DNA of 42,372 bases from Algoriphagus sp. (lineage in GTDB: Bacteria; Bacteroidota; Bacteroidia; Cytophagales; Cyclobacteriaceae), in contig NZ_JAHEBC010000004.1 of assembly GCF_024642405.1 (NCBI RefSeq), forward strand, positions 1 to 42,372. Reading direction: 5' to 3'. The notes under the pieces are model-generated. The model did no database searches. It saw nothing but the letters and a program-made list of their open reading frames with translations, and had not been told where the DNA came from. The position numbers were made by a program, and so were the translations under genes. Positions 32,271 through 42,372 of this stretch are shown here, in pieces. Every line of letters starts with the position of its first letter. The first letter of the stretch is position 1.

Positions 32271-32561
32271 GAAGTTTATTATTATGCTTAATCATGTTTA
32301 TTAATTTTTAGATTTTTCCCAAATCTCCATTCTTTTTGAAAGAAATGTTGCTTTGAGTAGATTCTCTTAAATAGATGTATGAGATTTTTAATTTTTTTTG
32401 CCAATAATTGAAATCAGTACAAAATTTTGAATTTTGAAAAAACGGCAAATCTATTTGTTAAAAAAGGGTGTATATTGAAGCATTATTAGAATAAAAAATT
32501 ATAAAAATTGATTTTACTTATATAAAATATATCACAATTGCTCATCAAGTAAAATTAAATA
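32271..32561. other. AT-rich gene-free stretch between ispE and the ilv promoter
   Basis: No ORF of note is present. The sequence is strongly AT-rich with A and T tracts, a palindrome CAAAATTTTG at 32420-32429 and a 6-bp inverted pair TTTGCC/GGCAAA 41 bp apart (32397-32402, 32444-32449). It may be a curved or regulator-binding upstream region, but I see no specific operator. Confidence 0.5.
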
Positions 32562-32592
32562 TTGTAAGTCTGAATTTTCAGTTTTAAGTTTG
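32562..32592 (+). promoter_or_regulatory. Promoter of the ilv-leu operon
   Basis: A -33 TTG (32562-32564), a 20-bp spacer and a perfect -7 TAAGTTTG (32585-32592) match the Bacteroidota sigma-A promoter. This is the best complete promoter in the window. Transcription would start near 32598, about 35 nt before the leader ORF. Confidence 0.7.
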
Positions 32593-32634
32593 TCTTGTAA
32601 TAAAAATCGAATTAAAGAAAACTTCGACATAACT

Positions 32635-32685
32635 ATGTATAAAGTAGTCATTTTGCTAAGCTTAATTATTCTCATTGGATGTTAA
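32635..32685 (+). CDS. Branched-chain amino acid leader peptide
   Basis: The 16-codon ORF encodes MYKVVILLSLIILIGC. Ten residues are Val, Ile or Leu (2 V, 4 I, 4 L). The four Leu codons are TTG, CTA, TTA and CTC, of which CTA and CTC should be uncommon in an AT-rich genome. It lies in the leader of the ilvD-led operon, between a promoter and an attenuator. Its stop codon is one base before the first attenuator segment. By analogy with ilv leader peptides, ribosome stalling at these codons would sense charged tRNAs for Val, Ile and Leu. The ending LIGC also looks like a lipobox, so a truncated lipoprotein signal peptide is the alternative, but it stops at that Cys and context favours the leader role. 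Confidence 0.8.
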   Translation: MYKVVILLSLIILIGC

Positions 32686-32686
32686 A

Positions 32687-32760
32687 AGTGAGGCACTAGA
32701 CTATTTATAATGAATTAACGAAATCTAAAGTGCCTCACTAAACCTGAGGCACTTTTTTTT
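32687..32760 (+). promoter_or_regulatory. Transcription attenuator of the ilv-leu operon
   Basis: Three segments compete. AGTGAGGCACT (32687-32697) pairs perfectly with AGTGCCTCACT (32729-32739), an 11-bp antiterminator. The latter region, read as AAAGTGCCTCA (32727-32737), also pairs perfectly with TGAGGCACTTT (32745-32755) around CTAAACC, followed by T to 32760: an 11-bp terminator. A ribosome at the leader stop (32683-32685) would cover segment one and permit termination. A ribosome stalled earlier would leave it free to form the antiterminator. I see no separate segment in the leader that pairs with segment one. ilvD starts 10 bp after the T run. Confidence 0.85.
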
Positions 32761-32770
32761 ACACACCAAT

Positions 32771-34450
32771 ATGACCCTGAAAAAACACAGTTGGGAAATC
32801 AGCGAGAATCCAGAGCATCCAGCCGGAATGGCTATGTTGTACGCTACGGGTATGAGCGACAAAAAGATGAAACAGCCTTTTGTGGGGATAGCAAGTTGTG
32901 GCTATGAAAGTAATCCCTGCAATATGCATCTCAATGACTTTGCCGGTCTGATCAAAGCCTCCTCTCAGGAGCATGATCTGACCGGTTTAGTTTTTAATAC
33001 CATTGGTATATCCGATGGAACATCAATGGGTACACTTGGGATGCGCTATTCTCTGGTTTCCAGAGAAATCATTGCAGATTCTATTGAGTCTTTTATTATA
33101 GGTCACTCCTTTGATGCATGCATTGCTGTCGCCGGTTGTGATAAAAATATGCCGGGTGCTTTGATGGGGATGATCCGTACCAATCGTCCTTCAATTTTAC
33201 TTTATGGCGGGACAATTGCTTCCGGGCATTATAAAGGGGAAAAATTGAATATTGTTTCAGCTTTCGAAGCTTTTGGTAAGCGTGTTAATGGAAATATTTC
33301 GGACGAAGATTATGATGGCGTGATCCGAAATGCATGCCCTGGAAAAGGTGCTTGTGGAGGTATGTATACCGCTAATACTATGTCATCTGCCATAGAAGCA
33401 ATGGGTATGTCCCTGCCTTATTCAGCTTCTTATCCGGCAAATTCCCCAGAGAAGCTGAGAGAGTGTGCTGAGGTAAATAAATACATGAAGATTCTTTTAG
33501 AAAAGGATATCAAACCAAGCGATATTATTTCCAGAAAGAGTATTGAAAATGCTGTGACTTGCGTGATAGCACTTGGAGGAAGTACAAATGCAGTAATGCA
33601 TATCATTGCGATAGCAAGAACTGCAGGGGTAGATTTTACAATTGAAGATTTTAAGGAGATAAATGCTAAAACTCCAATGATAGGTGATTTTAAGCCATCA
33701 GGTAAGTTTATGATGGAGGATCTTCATGAGCAAGGTGGTCTGCCGGCCTTTATGAAATATATGCTAGATAAAGGGTTTTTACATGGAGGTTGTATGACAG
33801 TTACTGGAAAAACTTTGGCAGAAAACCTTGAAAACATAGAGGCTATTACACCTTCTTTGGTCAATGTAATTCATCCTTTAGAAAAACCTATTAAGGCCAC
33901 GGGACACTTATGCGTGCTTTCAGGAAATCTTGCCCCGGAAGGAGCAGTTGCGAAAATCACAGGAAAAGAAGGGAGTTCCTTTACAGGCCCAGCGCATGTA
34001 TTTGATTCCGAGCAGGATGCAAATGATGCGATCAGAGACCATAAAATAGAAAAAGGTGAAGTAATTGTAATAAGAAATATTGGACCAAAAGGTGGTCCAG
34101 GAATGCCAGAAATGTTAAAGCCTACTTCCATGATTATTGGAGCAGGGCTTGGATCTGATGTGGCATTAATTACGGATGGCAGATTTTCCGGTGGTACACA
34201 TGGTTTCGTTGTGGGACATGTTACTCCTGAAGCATTTAGCGGAGGTCCGATAGGATTAGTAGAGAACGGAGACGTCATTACTATTGATGCAGATAATTTA
34301 AAACTTTCTGTTGCAGTTTCAGATGAAGAGTTTTCAGAAAGAAAGAAAACCTGGAAACCAAAAGAAATTTCTGATTTACAGGGTACATTGAAAAAATACA
34401 ATAAACTTGTTGCCACAGCATCTGAAGGTTGCGTGACAGATAAATTTTAA
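32771..34450 (+). CDS. ilvD: Dihydroxy-acid dehydratase
   Basis: IlvD dehydrates 2,3-dihydroxy-isovalerate and -methylvalerate in Val/Leu and Ile synthesis. It has 559 residues. Iron-sulfur cluster cysteines appear in [15 protein letters not shown] and [14 protein letters not shown]. The C-terminal domain includes [33 protein letters not shown] and [11 protein letters not shown]. It is the first structural gene after the attenuator, and ilvB follows 4 bp after its stop. Confidence 0.97.
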
Positions 34451-34454
34451 GCCT

Positions 34455-36149
34455 ATGAAAGACTTGATGATTCGAGGAGCCGATATCGTAGTCAAAACAC
34501 TCATAGAGGAGAATGCCGAAATCATATTCGGATATCCTGGAGGGGCGATTATGCCAGTGTATGATGCGCTGTATGATTACCACGATAAAATTAAACATGT
34601 CCTTACACGTCATGAGCAAGGAGCTATACATGCTGCCCAAGGATATGCTAGAGTTTCAGGGAAAGTCGGAGTTTGTTTGGCTACATCTGGACCAGGAGCA
34701 ACAAATTTGATTACAGGTTTGGCTGATGCCCTGATAGATAGCACACCTTTAGTATGTATTACTGGCCAAGTGGCGGCGCATTTGTTGGGAACTGATGCTT
34801 TTCAGGAAACAGATATGGTGGGGATCTCCATGCCATGTACAAAGTGGAATATTCAGGTTAGATCCGCTGAAGAAATAGCCCCCGCAATTGCGAAAGCATT
34901 TTTCATTGCCAGATCGGGTAGGCCGGGCCCTGTTTTAATTGACATTACAAAAAATGCACAAACTGATTTTGGCGAATTTAATTATGTGCCATGTTTAGGT
35001 TTTAGGTCTTATCAGACAAAAATTGAAATAAATAGAGATGATGTACAAAAAGCAGCAGAAGTAATCGATGCTGCTGAAAGGCCATATGTTTTATTTGGTC
35101 AAGGTGTCGTTTTGGGAAAAGCAGAAACTGAGTTTAAAGCTTTTTTGGATAAAACAGGAATTCCCGCGGCATCAACTCTTTTAGGATCTGGAGCACTTCC
35201 ACAAGATCATCCAAATTTTGTAGGAAAGCTTGGGATGCATGGAAACTATGCACCTAACCTATTGACAAACCAATGTGATGTATTAATTGCTGTGGGGATG
35301 AGGTTTGATGATCGCGTAACAGGGGATGTGAAGCGATATGCCAAGCAGGCTAAAATCATTCATTTAGAGCTTGACCCAGCAGAAATCAGTAAAACAGTAA
35401 AATCTCATTATTCCATTCTGGGTGATTGTAAAGATAGTTTAGCATTATTGACAGAAGCAGTTTCTCAAAATTCTCATGAAGAATGGTTGGAGAAGTTCCG
35501 AGAATTGGAAAGAGAGGAGAATGCAGCTGTTGTTCAGCATGATATTACTCCTACCAAAGTTGGGCTTACCATGGGAGAGGTAATTCATCAAGTAAACCAG
35601 TATAAAGCAGATGATGCAGTCTTGGTAACTGATGTGGGTCAGCATCAAATGATTGCATGGAGGTATTTCAATTATAAAAAGTCACGTACACAAGTAACTT
35701 CAGGTGGTTTGGGTACAATGGGCTTTGCATTACCTGCAGCACTCGGTGCTCAAATGTTTGATTTTTCAAGACAGGTAGTTTGTGTGGTTGGAGACGGAGG
35801 GATTCAAATGACTATTCAAGAATTTGGAACAATCATGCAAACTAAAGCTCCTGTAAAAGTAATCCTGCTCAATAATAATTATTTGGGTATGGTGAGACAA
35901 TGGCAGCAAATGTTCTTTGATAAACGCTATTCATTTACCGAATTGGATAATCCTGATTTTGTGAAAATTGCAGAAGCTTATGGTATTAAATCTCAAAAAA
36001 TCTCAGATAGATCTGATTTAAATGAAGCAATTGAGGATATGTTAATACATGATGGACCGTACTTCTTGGAAGTGGTGGTTGAAAAGGAAGACAATGTTTT
36101 CCCAATGATCGCAACGGGCTGTTCAGTAGAAGAGGTAAGATTAAGTTAA
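34455..36149 (+). CDS. ilvB: Acetolactate synthase, large subunit
   Basis: This ThDP- and FAD-dependent enzyme makes acetolactate or acetohydroxybutyrate, the first common step of Val/Leu/Ile synthesis. It has 564 residues. The N-terminal catalytic Glu region is IFGYPGGAIMPVYDAL and HEQGAIHAAQGYAR. The middle FAD domain has GQGVVLGKAE and GMRFDDRVTGD. The ThDP motif GDGGIQMTIQE ends in NNNYLGMVRQWQ. The small subunit gene follows after 9 bp, as expected for a regulated AHAS. Confidence 0.97.
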   Translation: MKDLMIRGADIVVKTLIEENAEIIFGYPGGAIMPVYDALYDYHDKIKHVLTRHEQGAIHAAQGYARVSGKVGVCLATSGPGATNLITGLADALIDSTPLVCITGQVAAHLLGTDAFQETDMVGISMPCTKWNIQVRSAEEIAPAIAKAFFIARSGRPGPVLIDITKNAQTDFGEFNYVPCLGFRSYQTKIEINRDDVQKAAEVIDAAERPYVLFGQGVVLGKAETEFKAFLDKTGIPAASTLLGSGALPQDHPNFVGKLGMHGNYAPNLLTNQCDVLIAVGMRFDDRVTGDVKRYAKQAKIIHLELDPAEISKTVKSHYSILGDCKDSLALLTEAVSQNSHEEWLEKFRELEREENAAVVQHDITPTKVGLTMGEVIHQVNQYKADDAVLVTDVGQHQMIAWRYFNYKKSRTQVTSGGLGTMGFALPAALGAQMFDFSRQVVCVVGDGGIQMTIQEFGTIMQTKAPVKVILLNNNYLGMVRQWQQMFFDKRYSFTELDNPDFVKIAEAYGIKSQKISDRSDLNEAIEDMLIHDGPYFLEVVVEKEDNVFPMIATGCSVEEVRLS

Positions 36150-36158
36150 CACCAGCCT

Positions 36159-36659
36159 ATGAAACGTTACACTATTTTTGTGATTACCGAAAACTTTATC
36201 GGTATTCTCAACCGCATCACGATCATCTTTACAAGAAGAGGTATCAACATTGATGCGCTTACTGCCTCTGAGAGCAGAATTGAAGGTATTCACCGAATCA
36301 CGATTGAGGTAACTGCCAGTGAGGATTCGGTTATCCAATTAGTTAATCAGATTGAAAAAATCATTGATGTGATCAAGGCATTTTATCATGAGGATGACGG
36401 AGTGGTGTATCAAGAGATCGCCTTGTATAAAATTCCAGTTTCCAAACTGGACGGAGGACTTGAGAAAATCATTCGGCAGCATAATGCAAAAATAATAGCT
36501 GCAGAACCAGACTTTGTGGTACTTGAGTTGTCTGGACATAAAGAACAGACACAGGAGCTTCTCGAAATTCTTAAAGGATATGGACTCTTGGAATTCGCCA
36601 GGTCTGGAAGAGTAGCCGTAGCCAAAAGAATGCATACAATAGATAGTTACGTAAAATAA
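36159..36659 (+). CDS. ilvN: Acetolactate synthase, small (regulatory) subunit
   Basis: This is the valine-sensing regulatory subunit of AHAS. It has 166 residues. The ACT domain at about 1-75 begins YTIFVITENFIGILNRITIIFTRRGINIDALT, followed by ESRIEGIHRITIEV. The C-terminal domain (about 80-166) includes EIALYKIP and FARSGRVAVAKR. The size is in the IlvH/IlvN range for a one-ACT protein. The 180-bp gap after it interrupts an otherwise tight operon. Confidence 0.95.
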   Translation: MKRYTIFVITENFIGILNRITIIFTRRGINIDALTASESRIEGIHRITIEVTASEDSVIQLVNQIEKIIDVIKAFYHEDDGVVYQEIALYKIPVSKLDGGLEKIIRQHNAKIIAAEPDFVVLELSGHKEQTQELLEILKGYGLLEFARSGRVAVAKRMHTIDSYVK

Positions 36660-36839
36660 AATAAATCAAACCTATGAAATCGAGGTGTGCCAAAGACTTC
36701 TTGGAAGCTTCTTTGTTCATTTAGATTCCATGAGATCATCAAACAAATAATAAACTCATGAAATGGGTATTTGGGTAATAGGGGTGGTTTATTGCCATCC
36801 TGAAAACTCGAAAACCATTTATAATCAAATTTTAAGCAC
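36660..36839 (+). other. ilvN-ilvC spacer with two possible hairpins
   Basis: This is by far the longest spacer inside the operon. It holds CAAAGACTTC/GAAG..TCTTTG at 36691-36715 (10 bp with a 2-nt bulge) and CATGAG/CTCATG at 36729-36734 with 36755-36760. Three tiny ATG frames (16, 6 and 6 codons) are present but show no leader-like composition. There is no T run and no perfect TAnnTTTG. Confidence 0.4.
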
Positions 36840-37883
36840 ATGAAATTAAAATTCGGCACAGTAGAAGAGAATGTAGTTACCAGAGAAGAATTTCCTTTGG
36901 AAAAAGCTAGAGAAGTTCTAAAAGATGAAGTTATCGCAGTTTTAGGATATGGAGTTCAAGGGCCAGGTCAAGCTTTAAACCTTAAAGACAATGGTTTTAA
37001 TGTAATTGTAGGCCAAAGAAAAGGTTCTAAAACTTGGGACAAGGCGGTTGCAGATGGCTGGGTACCAGGAGAAACTTTGTTTGAGCTGGAGGAAGCTTGT
37101 GAAAAAGGCACAATCCTTCAATTCCTTCTTTCTGATGCAGGTCAAATCGCTCTTTGGCCAACGGTTAAAAAACACTTAACTCCAGGTAAAGCATTGTATT
37201 TCTCTCATGGATTTGGAGTAACATACAAAGACAAAACAGGAATTATTCCACCTCCAGATGTAGACGTTATTTTGGTAGCTCCAAAAGGCTCTGGAACGTC
37301 CTTGAGAAGAATGTTTGTAGAAGGAAGAGGATTGAATTCTTCTTTTGCAATTTATCAGGATGGAACTGGCAAGGCAAAAGATAGAGTTATAGCTTTGGGT
37401 ATCGGAGTTGGATCTGGATATTTATTTGAAACAGATTTCTACAGAGAAGTTACTTCTGATTTAACAGGAGAAAGAGGTACCTTGATGGGAGCTATTCAAG
37501 GTATTTTTGCAGCTCAATACGATGTATTGAGAGCAAATGGGCATACGCCATCAGAAGCTTTTAATGAGACAGTAGAAGAATTAACCCAATCTTTAATGCC
37601 ACTAGTGGCAGAAAATGGAATGGATTGGATGTATGCTAATTGTTCAACCACTGCTCAAAGAGGTGCTTTAGACTGGTGGAAACCATTTAGAGATGCTACC
37701 AAACCAGTTTTCGAGGAATTATATAATAGTGTAAAATCAGGTAAAGAAGCTCAGAAGTCTATTGATTCAAATTCAAAAGATGATTACAGAGTGAAATTGG
37801 AAGCAGAATTGAAAGAATTACGAGATTCTGAAATGTGGCAGGCAGGTGCTGTCGTAAGACAATTGAGACCAGAGAACAATTAA
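36840..37883 (+). CDS. ilvC: Ketol-acid reductoisomerase, yeast Ilv5-like type
   Basis: IlvC carries out the NADPH-dependent isomeroreduction of acetolactate and acetohydroxybutyrate. It has 347 residues. The Rossmann motif is VLGYGVQGPGQALNLKDNG, where most bacterial enzymes have GYGSQGHAHALNL. The NADPH loop QRKGSKTWDKAVADGWVPG, FSHGFGVTYKD, LVAPKGSGTSLRRMF, NSSFAIYQDGTGKA and CSTTAQRGALDWW follow the pattern I recall for fungal Ilv5 closely. The single C-terminal domain ends ELRDSEMWQAGAVVRQLRPEN, again as in Ilv5. leuA starts 18 bp after the stop. Confidence 0.95.
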   Translation: MKLKFGTVEENVVTREEFPLEKAREVLKDEVIAVLGYGVQGPGQALNLKDNGFNVIVGQRKGSKTWDKAVADGWVPGETLFELEEACEKGTILQFLLSDAGQIALWPTVKKHLTPGKALYFSHGFGVTYKDKTGIIPPPDVDVILVAPKGSGTSLRRMFVEGRGLNSSFAIYQDGTGKAKDRVIALGIGVGSGYLFETDFYREVTSDLTGERGTLMGAIQGIFAAQYDVLRANGHTPSEAFNETVEELTQSLMPLVAENGMDWMYANCSTTAQRGALDWWKPFRDATKPVFEELYNSVKSGKEAQKSIDSNSKDDYRVKLEAELKELRDSEMWQAGAVVRQLRPENN

Positions 37884-37901: not shown

Positions 37902-39410
37902 ATGAGTGAAAAGCTATGGATATTTGATACAACCCTGAGAGATGGGGAGCAAGTGCCAGGGTGTCAGCTTAATACCCAGGAGAAAATTGTGGTGGCTAAA
38001 GCTTTGGAAGAACTAGGAGTAGATATTATTGAAGCTGGTTTTCCAATTTCAAGTCCAGGTGATTTTAACTCGGTAGTAGAAATTTCAAAAGCAGTTTCAA
38101 ACCCTATCATTTGTGCCCTTTCAAGAGCAGTTGAGAAAGATATCGAAGTAGCAGCCCAGGCACTTAAGTATGCAAAGAAAGGTAGGATCCATACTGGAAT
38201 CGGTGTGTCTCCTTACCATATCCAATATAAACTTCGGTCCACGCCTGAAGATATAATCAAGCGTGGAGTTGCAGCAGTTAAGTTTGCAAAGAAGTTTGTG
38301 GAAGATGTGGAGTTCTACGCAGAAGATGCAGGTCGCTCGGAGCCGGATTTCCTTTGTAAAATAATTGAAGAAGTAATCAAAGCAGGGGCAACTGTGGTAA
38401 ATATCCCTGATACCACGGGATATTGTTTGCCTGAACAATACGGTGCAATTATTTCGAACTTGAAAAATAATGTCCCAAATATTGATAAAGCGATTATTGC
38501 TACGCATTGTCATAATGATTTGGGAATGGCAACAGCCAATACGGTTGCAGGTGTCCAAAAAGGTGCGCGACAAGTAGAAGTAACCATCAATGGAATAGGC
38601 GAAAGAGCAGGTAATACCTCCATGGAGGAAGTAGTAATGGCTATAAAGTGTCACAAGGATATACCTGTTCATACTGATATCGTCACTCCAAGAATTTACA
38701 AAACAAGTCGTTTGGTTTCTAAATTGATGAATATGCCTGTTCAACCCAATAAGGCGATTGTAGGGAGAAATGCTTTTGCGCATTCTTCTGGCATCCACCA
38801 AGATGGGGTTTTGAAGCATAGAGAAAATTATGAGATCATCGATCCAAAAGAAGTAGGTGTAGACGCGTCTACAATAGTCTTGACAGCAAGATCCGGTAGA
38901 GCTGCATTGAAGCATCATTTAGATGCTTTGGGTGTTGAACTAGAAGGGGAAGCTTTACGAGAAGTTTATGAATCTTTCTTGATACTTGCAGATAGCAAAA
39001 GAGATATTGGTAGAAAAGATCTGATGGGACTGGTAGGTAAGTTTTTGGAGGAATCAAATTTCATTGAACTTGGAACGGTTACTTATTCTTCGAATGGCAC
39101 CATTCAAGCGAAAGTTTCCTTGACTATTGGAGATGAACCTTATACTGCTACTTCTCAAGGAAACGGCCCTGTTGATGCAGTACTAAAAGCAATTGACAAA
39201 ATCGTTAAGCCTCAGGTGGATCTTGAAGAATTTTTGATACAGGCCATTACTCATGGTAGTGATGATGTAGCAAAAGTCCATATGAGATTAATCAAAGGGG
39301 ATAAACCTTATTACGGATTTTCATCCAACACAGACATAGTATTGGCTTCTGCACAAGCTTTTGTCGATGCTCTAAACAAAATACCAGTCAAAGAATATAC
39401 GACTGCATAA
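37902..39410 (+). CDS. leuA: 2-isopropylmalate synthase
   Basis: LeuA condenses 2-oxoisovalerate with acetyl-CoA, the first committed step of leucine synthesis. It has 502 residues. The HMGL-like TIM barrel begins [16 protein letters not shown], with the metal site [16 protein letters not shown] and [15 protein letters not shown]. The linker has [12 protein letters not shown]. The C-terminal LeuA dimer/regulatory domain (about 385-495) is present, so leucine feedback is likely. leuC follows after 4 bp. A 265-codon open frame on the other strand inside this gene is a shadow. Confidence 0.96.
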
Positions 39411-39414
39411 AATC

Positions 39415-40821
39415 ATGGAAAAGACTACATTATTTGATAAAATCTGGGATGCTCACGTAGTGAAATCGGTTCCAGGTGGACCAGATGTGTTCTTCATTGA
39501 TAAACATTTTATCCATGAAGTAACTTCACCGGTTGCATTCCTGAATTTGGAAAAACGCGGTGTGACAGTAAAATACCCTCATCGTACTATTGCTACTCCA
39601 GATCATAACGTTCCTACTATTCATCAGGATCAGACGATTAAAGACAAACTTTCCCGCATGCAAGTGGAGAGGTTACGTGATAATTGTAAAAAATATGGGA
39701 TTGAATTACATGATTTAGGTTCTGCTCATCACGGTATTGTTCACGTAATCGGACCAGAGTTGGGGATTACTCAACCGGGAATAACAATTGTCTGTGGAGA
39801 TAGTCATACTTCCACTCATGGAGCTTTCGGTGCAATAGCATTTGGAATTGGTACATCTGAAGTGGAAATGGTTTTAGCAACGCAATGTATCATGCAGTCT
39901 AAGCCAAAGAAAATGAGAATCACCATTGATGGTGTGCTGGGAGCCGGTGTTACTTCTAAAGACATTATTCTTTACATCATTGCAAAAATTTCTGCAGCTG
40001 GAGCTACAGGTTATTTTGTGGAATATGCTGGTTCGGCAATACGAGGCCTTTCCATGGAAGCTAGAATGACCATTTGCAATATGTCAATTGAGATGGGTGC
40101 AAGAGGTGGTTTGATAGCTCCGGATGAAACGACTTTCAACTACCTGAAAGGCAAACAATATTCTCCATCTGGTGAAGCTTGGGATCAGGCTGTAGCAGAA
40201 TGGTCTAAATTGAAAACAGACGATGGAGCAGTTTTCGATAAAGAATATACGTTTGATGCAGCTGATATCGAACCAATGATAACCTATGGTACAAATCCTG
40301 GAATGGGAATCAAAGTCAAAGGTAATATCCCAACCACAGAGGGTATGGAAGGTAGTAACAAAACTTCTTACCTGAAATCATTGGAATACATGGGCTTTGC
40401 TCCTGGAGAACCAGTGAAAGGAAAGAAAGTGGATTACGTTTTCGTTGGTTCTTGTACGAACGGTCGAATCGAGGACATTCGCTCTGTTGCAGCTTTTGTT
40501 AAAGGGCATAAGAAAGCAGATAACATCACTGCTTGGATTGTTCCAGGATCTAAAGAAGTGGAAAAAATGGCTCATGAAGAAGGATTGGTAAAGATCCTTG
40601 AAGAGGCAGGATTTGAATTAAGACAACCGGGATGTTCTGCTTGTCTTGCGATGAATGACGATAAAATTCCATCTGGCAAGTATGCAGTTTCTACTTCAAA
40701 TAGAAACTTTGAGGGTCGTCAGGGACCTGGAGCAAGAACCATGCTCGCATCTCCTTTGACTGTTGCAGCAGTTGCTGTAACTGGTATGATTACAGATCCT
40801 CGAGAAGTATTTCAATCCTAA
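39415..40821 (+). CDS. leuC: 3-isopropylmalate dehydratase, large subunit
   Basis: LeuC is the 4Fe-4S aconitase-family subunit that isomerises 2- to 3-isopropylmalate (and can act on citramalate). It has 468 residues. The cluster cysteines are in [10 protein letters not shown] and [10 protein letters not shown]. Other motifs are [25 protein letters not shown] and [19 protein letters not shown]. leuD follows after 12 bp and supplies the swivel domain. Confidence 0.97.
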
Positions 40822-40833
40822 AAAGAAAAGAAA

Positions 40834-41424
40834 ATGGCGTACGATAAATTTACTGTTTTGACGAGTACTGCAGTTCCATTGCCAGCGGAAAATGTAGATA
40901 CTGACCAAATTATCCCTGCTCGTTTTTTGAAAGCGACGGAGCGCGAAGGGTTTGGAGATAACCTTTTCCGAGACTGGAGATACGATGTGGAAGGAAATCC
41001 TAAAAAGGATTTTGTTTTAAATGATCCCACTTTCTCTGGTAAAATTTTAGTTGCAGGAAAGAATTTTGGATCAGGATCGAGTCGAGAACACGCAGTTTGG
41101 GCTATTTATGATTATGGATTTAGATGCGTTGTTTCAAGCTTCTTTGCTGATATCTTCAAAAATAACTGTCTGAATATTGGTGTTTTGCCAGTGACAGTTT
41201 CTCCTGAGTTTGCTGATAAATTATTGGATTCAATCACAAAAGATCCTTCTACAGAAATTGAAGTAAGTATTCCTGCTCAAACAATCACACTTCTTGCAAC
41301 TGGGCAATCAGAATCATTTGATATTAATTCTTACAAAAAGGATAACATGCAGAATGGTTTTGATGATATCGACTACTTACTAAATATGGAGTCTGAGATC
41401 GACGAGTTTGAAAAAACGAGATAA
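40834..41424 (+). CDS. leuD: 3-isopropylmalate dehydratase, small subunit
   Basis: LeuD is the swivel-domain partner of LeuC. It has 196 residues. Family marks are NVDTDQIIPARFLK near the start, GKNFGSGSSREHAVWAI and NCLNIGVLPV. The C-terminus (FDDIDYLLNMESEIDEFEKTR) is the usual short tail. The second synthase-like gene starts 6 bp after the stop. Confidence 0.96.
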   Translation: MAYDKFTVLTSTAVPLPAENVDTDQIIPARFLKATEREGFGDNLFRDWRYDVEGNPKKDFVLNDPTFSGKILVAGKNFGSGSSREHAVWAIYDYGFRCVVSSFFADIFKNNCLNIGVLPVTVSPEFADKLLDSITKDPSTEIEVSIPAQTITLLATGQSESFDINSYKKDNMQNGFDDIDYLLNMESEIDEFEKTR

Positions 41425-41430
41425 AATTTG

Positions 41431-42372
41431 ATGAATCATCAGAGACGCATAGAAATAATGGATACAACCCTGAGGGATGGTGAACAAACCTCAGGCGTTT
41501 CCTTTTTGCCTTCTGAAAAGCTACAGATTGCTAAATTACTTTTGGAGGAACTCCGGGTAGATAGAATCGAGGTAGCATCGGCTCGCGTTTCTGACGGTGA
41601 GCTGGAGGGAGTACAAAAAATCACCCATTGGGCAGCTGAAAAAGGCTATTTAGATCGTGTGGAGGTTTTGGGTTTTGTAGATACTCCTGCATCTGTTAAC
41701 TGGCTGATTCAAGCTGGTGCCAAAGTAATGAATCTTTTGACTAAAGGTTCATTAAATCATCTGACACATCAGCTCAAGAAGACTCAAGAGCAGCATTTTT
41801 CTGATATTGCCCAAAGTATTGCACATGCTCAGGAAAACGGGATAGATGTCAATATCTATCTTGAAGACTGGAGTAATGGGATGCGGAATTCAAAAGATTA
41901 CACAATGGATCTTATTGAATTTCTTTCAAAACAACCAGTGAAGCGAATCATGCTTCCGGATACCTTGGGTCTGCTTTCTCCTGAGGAAACCAAAATCTAC
42001 ATCGGAGAAATAACAAACAAATATCCCTCCGTCCACTTTGATTTTCATGCACACAACGATTACGATCTTTCTGTGGCCAACGTCATGGAAGCAATTTTGA
42101 ATGGAATTTCTGGAATTCATACCACCGTAAACGGTTTGGGGGAAAGAGCTGGTAATGCACCATTGGAATCAGTGATCGCAGTAATCAAAGATTTTACTGA
42201 TTTGGATATCAATATCCATGAACAGAAAATCTACCGAGTAAGCAAACTAGTGGAGCAATTCTCTGGTCAACATATTCCCGCAAATAAACCTGTAGTAGGT
42301 GAAAATGTATTTACGCAGACTGCCGGTATCCATGCGGATGGAGACAACAAAAAGAACCTTTATTTCAATGAT
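41431..42372 (+). CDS. Second LeuA-like synthase (citramalate or isopropylmalate synthase), 3' end cut
   Basis: The frame is open from the ATG at 41431 to the window end, 314 codons, so the C-terminal part is missing. The HMGL-like barrel begins [16 protein letters not shown]. Metal and substrate parts are DFHAHNDYDLSVANVMEA, NGLGERAGNAPLESV and NVFTQTAGIHADGD. It is clearly a homologue but not a close copy of leuA at 37902; the [13 protein letters not shown] opening is more like CimA/Re-type enzymes. Coming after leuCD and with no ilvA nearby, a citramalate synthase supplying 2-oxobutyrate for isoleucine is a fair guess. A leucine-specific second LeuA is the alternative. Confidence 0.85.
   Translation, partial: MNHQRRIEIMDTTLRDGEQTSGVSFLPSEKLQIAKLLLEELRVDRIEVASARVSDGELEGVQKITHWAAEKGYLDRVEVLGFVDTPASVNWLIQAGAKVMNLLTKGSLNHLTHQLKKTQEQHFSDIAQSIAHAQENGIDVNIYLEDWSNGMRNSKDYTMDLIEFLSKQPVKRIMLPDTLGLLSPEETKIYIGEITNKYPSVHFDFHAHNDYDLSVANVMEAILNGISGIHTTVNGLGERAGNAPLESVIAVIKDFTDLDINIHEQKIYRVSKLVEQFSGQHIPANKPVVGENVFTQTAGIHADGDNKKNLYFND

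Follow-up and report, generated by a model that had tools for sequence, protein, structure and literature searches.

The ilv-leu operon of an Algoriphagus-like bacterium is preceded by a leader that we read, with a probability of about 0.86, as a ribosome-mediated transcription attenuator with the classical four segments of the trp/his/ilv type. The window (the whole 42,372-nucleotide stretch of DNA that was analysed) contains a short open reading frame (ORF) rich in codons for valine, isoleucine and leucine (V/I/L), two mutually exclusive helices and an intrinsic terminator just upstream of ilvD. The parts of this leader, their conservation among relatives, their pairings and the register of the control codons relative to segment 1 are shown by the sequences and their computed folds. 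The conserved ORF, the terminator and the exclusive helices support the original prediction that a leader peptide may control this branched-chain amino acid (BCAA) operon by attenuation.

Anatomy of the leader and its operon

The host genome resembles Algoriphagus, its ilvD being 94-95% identical to those of A. pacificus, A. aestuarii, A. iocasae and A. lutimaris. The promoter, the 16-codon ORF, the three segments and the terminator 10 bp before ilvD are all present where they had been described. The features of the leader and of the operon behind it are as follows.

32553-32569, + strand: conserved block AATTAAATATTGTAAGT, overlapping the -33 element (genome pattern search and upstream comparison)
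32562-32592, + strand: promoter, with -33 TTG at 32562-32564, 20 nt, and -7 TAAGTTTG at 32585-32592 (sequence and conserved pattern)
32635-32685, + strand: leader peptide ORF MYKVVILLSLIILIGC, 16 codons, from ATG at 32635 to TAA at 32683-32685
32642-32663, + strand: protector 5' arm, within the leader ORF (minimum free energy [MFE] fold; conservation, synonymous-codon and swap tests)
32686-32706, + strand: protector 3' arm, consisting of segment 1 and TAGACTATTT (basis as for the 5' arm)
32687-32697, + strand: segment 1 AGTGAGGCACT, antiterminator 5' arm, one base after the leader TAA
32729-32739, + strand: segment 2 AGTGCCTCACT, common to antiterminator and terminator (sequence, folds, conservation)
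32745-32755, + strand: segment 3 TGAGGCACTTT, 3' arm of the terminator stem
32727-32760, + strand: intrinsic terminator, with stem 32727-32737/32745-32755 and T-run 32753-32760 of eight T (hairpin call, fold, conservation)
32771-34450, + strand: ilvD, dihydroxy-acid dehydratase, first structural gene (NCBIfam TIGR00110 above cut-off)
34455-36149, + strand: ilvB, acetolactate synthase large subunit (TIGR00118 above cut-off)
36159-36659, + strand: ilvN, acetolactate synthase small subunit (TIGR00119 above cut-off)
36840-37883, + strand: ilvC, ketol-acid reductoisomerase (TIGR00465 above cut-off)
37902-39410, + strand: leuA, 2-isopropylmalate synthase (TIGR00973 above cut-off)
39415-40821, + strand: leuC, 3-isopropylmalate dehydratase large subunit (TIGR00170 above cut-off)
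40834-41424, + strand: leuD, 3-isopropylmalate dehydratase small subunit (TIGR00171 above cut-off)
41431-42372, + strand: cimA-like gene, truncated by the window end (best NCBIfam match NF042433 CimA)

Ten of the 16 residues of the leader peptide are V, I or L, and the control codons comprise V4-L8 and L10-I14. In the window fold an 11-bp stem and a 7-nt loop make up the terminator (-15.3 kcal/mol), and three extra pairs (AGA:UCU) bring the antiterminator to 14 pairs and -18.4 kcal/mol. Ten bases separate the end of the T-run from the ilvD ATG (32771). Two terminator-like calls were made in 1 kb, the second of which is the same hairpin on the minus strand. Block AATTAAATATTGTAAGT has a single exact copy in its own genome and six more matches at 2 mismatches, compared with 5 for a reversed-pattern control, and ATTAAATATTGT was found in 61 of 75 distinct ilvD upstream regions. 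The conservation of this block far exceeds what the TTG alone requires; the block might extend the promoter or serve as an activator site.

The eight window genes, by their NCBIfam assignments, make valine, isoleucine and leucine. PRK11895 scores better than TIGR00119 on ilvN yet falls just under its own cut-off, and the cimA-like gene, incomplete in the window, reaches 467.7 bits against NF042433, below the cut-off of 950. All eight are co-directional BCAA genes separated by 3-18 nt, except for the 180 nt between ilvN and ilvC. The promoter consensus of Bacteroidota differs from that of Escherichia coli; the Bacteroidota-type pattern was not found in this gap in the window or in the 12 of 78 relatives so tested, and no terminator was called in the gap (36660-36839) in the window. 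Of the 78 relatives, 74 have 24-135 nt in this gap and four have 182-193 nt. The proposal that one switch would govern at least eight genes is supported in part; cotranscription of the set is presumed.

Conservation, register and breadth

Eighty ilvD loci were named, nearly all labelled as Cyclobacteriaceae genera; L073, which is missing the ilvD start, was dropped, and L046 has only 142 nt of upstream sequence, so that no leader was scored there. The counts of 67, 68, 71 and 75 given below differ in that duplicates were removed over different stretches. A terminator and segment 1 matched in 80 of 80 sequences (79 named loci and the window), by search patterns composed after inspection of the upstream sequences. 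A V/I/L-rich ORF beginning with ATG accompanies them in every one of the 78 relatives with sufficient upstream sequence (79 of 79 including the window), bearing out the expectation that a short BCAA-rich ORF would be conserved ahead of ilvD. It spans 15-20 codons in the relatives, and once 23.

The arrangement of leader ORF and terminator is, on this sequence comparison, beyond chance. A strict filter, the same for every set, asked for an ATG ORF of 12-30 codons with at least 38% V/I/L and three of these in a row, a stop 8-80 nt before the terminator, and a terminator within 260 nt of ilvD. It was passed by 72 of 80 ilvD upstream regions and by 0 of 800 dinucleotide shuffles, although shuffle and permutation counts here and below are not probabilities, because the compared sequences share ancestry. 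The eight failures were L031, L034, L042, L043, L046, L048, L051 and L077. The promoter pattern TTG-N19/20-TAnn[AT]TTG, relaxed at one -7 base after the misses of the strict form were known, occurs in 75 of 75 distinct upstream regions, with a spacing of 20 in 73; the strict -7 form TAnnTTTG matches 30 of the 75. Selection at the amino acid level on the leader peptide is only faintly suggested: for the coding frame, pN/pS values are 0.55-0.87 among the four larger length groups and 0.10 for the smallest (n = 4), and for leaders of 16 codons a different frame has a lower value, 0.35.

The last V/I/L run ends 10-13 nt upstream of the GAGGCAC core of segment 1 in 75 of 79 leaders, and the stop codon starts 1, 4, 6, 7 or 11 nt upstream of that core, depending on the lineage. 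Of the signs of a stalling mechanism the strongest is this register, in which the control codons keep a constant distance to segment 1 while the stop wanders. The footprint of the E. coli ribosome extends 13 nt from the first base of the A-site codon. Under this assumed footprint, a ribosome with the last control codon in its A site would have 0-3 nt left before the core in 67 of 71 distinct sequences. Once at the stop, the ribosome would cover 6-12 nt from the core start, again in 67 of 71; at four Cyclobacterium loci it would cover just 2 nt. The mean folding energy of the RNA left free under the same assumption is -16.1 kcal/mol in the stalled state versus -1.9 kcal/mol at the stop. These models favor the view, already held in the original prediction, that a ribosome at the stop would cover segment 1 and that stalling on V/I/L codons would leave it free.

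Both alternative helices are maintained in the relatives, as complementarity of the segments would have it. Across 71 distinct sequences, terminator pairs are kept in 94.7% of alignment cells versus 30-61% with slid partners, and antiterminator pairs in 89.7% versus 32-45%. In six aligned sequences of Cyclobacterium and Lunatimonas the core changes from GAGGC/GCCTC/GAGGC to GAAGC/GCTTC/GAAGC, the column trio 77/127/142 being altered in all three segments in an equal number of sequences (6), and therefore both helices are kept. Antiterminator pairs changed on both sides number 3, which is no excess (247 of 500 shuffles were as high).

The leader was also sought more widely. The family sample consisted of 30 loci and a further 40 genomes taken by position and spread over genera, out of 136 family genomes that have ilvD. 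For the order, where 93 genomes have ilvD, the scan covered the 25 loci L183-L207, of which L196 is a same-family genome that is also L178; and 20 of the 27 other-order genomes of the class with ilvD were included. The strict filter was passed by 18 of the 40 more distant family genomes (eight of the window's sequence type and ten not), by 2 of the 25 order loci, both of one other family, and by 2 of the 20 other-order genomes, compared with 0 of 1,700 shuffles of the three sets together. Within 400 nt upstream of ilvD, no leader passing the filter was found in 22 of 40 family genomes, 23 of 25 order loci and 18 of 20 other-order genomes.

The ten family genomes and the two of another family have a leader, a protector pairing, a terminator and a segment 1-segment 2 complement of 7-11 nt. 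In all 14 leaders of other sequence type, the full fold joins leader codons to the stretch that follows the ORF, and in 12 this stretch is complementary over 7-11 nt to the terminator 5' arm. The remaining two, L223 and L227 from another order, have MQISIIITSVIVVNV-type leaders, a terminator and leader pairing, with no clear antiterminator (complements of 3 and 4 nt).

A model of segments 1 to 3, R1, is mostly a sequence model because only 7 pairs are retained in it. It matches one place in its own genome. Among 291 order genomes searched with stricter filters, 30 match at E 0.01, and the 22 clear matches (E 3.4e-5 or better) are all of the same family, the own genome included. None of the 14 leaders of other sequence type matches R1 at E 0.01; L183 (E 0.022) and L161 (E 0.04) come closest, and the other twelve gave no match up to E 1. 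The eight weak matches (L133-L140) resemble ordinary terminators and were rejected; a V/I/L-rich frame precedes that of L138.

A few loci stand apart. In L148/L182 (genome G078) a terminator of the same kind precedes ilvD with no ATG leader by the filter, and L149 has a terminator identical in sequence to theirs together with a Phe/Ile-rich leader. L046 and L072 are metagenome-assembled contigs labelled Spirosoma fluviale, whose ilvD is 83-84% identical to the window's and whose terminator is of the window type; L072 carries a window-type leader too. The label is possibly a labelling or binning error.

The protector, the untranslated state and rival readings

The original prediction held that there is no classic 1:2 protector hairpin and that an untranslated leader would by default permit antitermination. 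The best full-leader fold of the window (MFE) pairs 32642-32663 with 32686-32706 beside the terminator, the 5' arm being leader codons 3-10 and its partner segment 1 together with the AGACTAT behind it, each column of which is at least 70% identical in the alignment (A1). At least 6 leader-to-segment-1 pairs form in 68 of 68 distinct folds.

Codon controls that preserve the peptide were used because the protector 5' arm is coding. The mean protector energy is -11.3 kcal/mol, compared with -8.5 for permuted synonymous codons and -5.3 for random synonymous codons, and the z-score is below -1 in 43 of 67 relatives against permuted codons and in 58 of 67 against random ones. Exchange of arms among 17 representatives raised the mean from -12.4 (native) to -9.2 kcal/mol, with 0 of 10,000 permutations reaching the native mean; native arms beat the mean of their swaps in 13 of the 17 and did not in 4. 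In the alignment, protector cells are paired in 73.1% versus 35-44% when slid, and the third base of one Val codon follows its protector partner (AU 31, GU 21, GC 10). Neither the protector pairs changed on both sides (8) nor the pair types (27) exceeded those of shuffles, 452 and 492 of 500 of which, respectively, were as high; a slide of +3 yields as many both-sided changes as the native register (61 versus 58). Folds, codon controls, swaps and alignment, taken together, weigh against the statement that no protector exists.

One group departs from this pattern. The metagenome-derived Algoriphagus clade of L040, L042-L044, L048-L052 and L072 has Leu/Ile leaders with at most one Val. The permuted-codon test was failed by 8 of the 9 distinct members tested (L040/L042-L044/L049-L052/L072), L043 being the one that passes. 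It looks as if the amino acid sensed in this clade, and perhaps the default, had shifted.

The default predicted for an untranslated leader also differs from the earlier view. The best full-length fold contains both terminator pairs and protector pairs in 69 of 71 distinct sequences; its mean advantage over a forced antiterminator is 7.6 kcal/mol, and the advantage exceeds 2 kcal/mol in 67 of 71, which speaks against antitermination as the untranslated default. At the stage before segment 3 exists, 57 of 71 relatives, among them the window, have the antiterminator as their best fold, and the untranslated outcome is therefore a kinetic question. We expect, with moderate confidence, that an untranslated leader terminates by default. 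The protector might lose the cotranscriptional race, in which case read-through would follow when the leader is untranslated, and termination would need a ribosome at the stop as its obligatory licence; we consider this unlikely in general and likeliest in the metagenome-derived clade that mostly fails the codon test. If it were true, any general failure to initiate translation of the leader would also switch the operon on, the reverse of enterobacterial superattenuation.

The mechanism favored by these observations can be outlined as follows, with transcription start, leader translation, stalling, termination and amino acid dependence all inferred. RNA polymerase would start about 40 nt upstream of the leader ORF. 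With sufficient charged tRNA, the ribosome would reach the stop and cover segment 1, blocking the antiterminator, so that segments 2 and 3 could form the terminator and transcription would end before ilvD. When Val-, Ile- or Leu-tRNA is scarce, the ribosome would stall on a control codon and open the protector, the 5' arm of which is formed by leader codons. Even if it stalled on the last control codon, 0-3 nt would separate the front of the ribosome from the segment 1 core; segments 1 and 2 would pair, and polymerase would enter the operon. With no ribosome, the protector would sequester segment 1 and termination would be the expected default.

The leader combines clustered codons for the amino acids that the operon makes (10 of 16 residues in the window; an ORF in 79 of 79) with an intrinsic terminator between ORF and ilvD and a conserved antiterminator that excludes the terminator through their common segment 2. 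A protector over the antiterminator 5' arm, the mark of the trp type, is present as well, though in 24 of 67 relatives it is not better than permuted codons by one standard deviation.

The scheme of the original prediction would keep three segments and dispense with the protector, with antitermination by default and termination dependent on a ribosome at the stop. Segment 1 can indeed pair with segment 2 before segment 3 appears, in most relatives as the best fold, and the clade described above mostly fails the codon test. The pairing of leader codons with segment 1 and AGACTAT is nevertheless kept in relatives, full-length folds favor protector plus terminator, and the leaders of other sequence type all pair their leader codons with the stretch behind the ORF; six of these lack the antiterminator before segment 3, the protector persisting, and in L155, L156, L161, L183 and L184 the antiterminator is in the best fold at that stage with 11-16 pairs. 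On folds and conservation we rejected the scheme, the early antiterminator being the kinetic caveat, and judge it improbable. A constitutive or protein-controlled terminator, with a short ORF that is incidental or boosts ilvD translation by reinitiation, is far less probable. It would accord with the weak pN/pS support for coding; it would leave the V/I/L-rich ORF kept in every leader scored, the steady spacing of control codons to segment 1 despite a shifting stop, and the recurrence of other-sequence V/I/L leaders at ilvD to be accounted for. The leader stop also lies 83-133 nt upstream of the ilvD match versus the 11-14 nt of the reinitiation proposal for Bacteroidetes, as given in PMC4833913.

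Least probable of all, to the point that we give it hardly any weight, is a riboswitch, T-box or other element binding a ligand or tRNA. A strongly conserved 5' untranslated region before a biosynthetic operon is what such an element would show; the ORF and the three helices, however, account for most of the conserved nucleotides. A known Rfam RNA family was rejected, no family reaching its gathering score in the window and none but a tRNA doing so in six relatives. The sole match to the leader at E up to 1 was Phe_leader (RF01859), itself a leader-peptide attenuator, which aligned over its full length at 24.3 bits (E 0.04) against a gathering score of 55.

Relation to known attenuators

On the four-segment reading, the leader is a candidate leader-peptide attenuator of a Bacteroidota BCAA operon, described in full. 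The data set also offers a natural experiment in two parts: the stop shifts by up to 10 nt against control codons that hold their distance to segment 1, and in more distant genomes ilvD is again preceded by leaders that have this plan in a different sequence. The set of leaders would be suited to tests of the coupling of ribosome and RNA polymerase in this phylum.

The Bacteroid-trp motif (RF01692) is an attenuator candidate; it had no match in the own genome at E 0.001, with a positive control in Bacteroides ihuae. That motif belongs to the same phylum (PMC2864571). A transcript map of Flavobacterium psychrophilum, also of this phylum, hinted at leader-peptide attenuation ahead of operons for amino acid biosynthesis, and no ilv leader is named in the accessible part of that report (PMC9723704). 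Among the matches listed, in a search whose scope was literature open without subscription, there was no description of an ilv leader in Cytophagales and general clues only for Bacteroidota.

In function and anatomy the leader matches attenuators of other phyla. As described in PMC5794164 (Kaiser et al. 2018), the Staphylococcus ilvD leader likewise places a BCAA-rich peptide directly before ilvD of an ilv-leu operon, followed by a terminator, and the stalling-dependent read-through proposed there is supported by mutants. By that description, it differs in having a 26-residue Ile/Leu peptide and a terminator 52 nt past the stop, in a proposed antiterminator that pairs with the U-tail without disrupting the terminator stem, and in the additional action of CodY. 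The ilvBNC attenuator of Corynebacterium and the ilvB-II motif, as presented in PMC10272879 and PMC11857589, share the BCAA-rich upstream ORF and the three hairpins of terminator, antiterminator and antiantiterminator, the last of these backed by mutations in C. glutamicum; they differ in phylum, in having ilvB as the first gene and in how the hairpins overlap.

The plan of the present leader is also that of the enterobacterial trp, his, leu, ilv and pheA attenuators, which (PMC1183508) likewise combine a leader ORF, an antiterminator and terminator that exclude each other, and a hairpin competing with the antiterminator. Enterobacterial Phe_leader itself differs in its amino acids and genes and in the subthreshold score of its match here. 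The leader very probably allows the ribosome to govern transcription of the operon; this type of switch is old and well known, and is traced here in environmental bacteria for which few descriptions of it exist.
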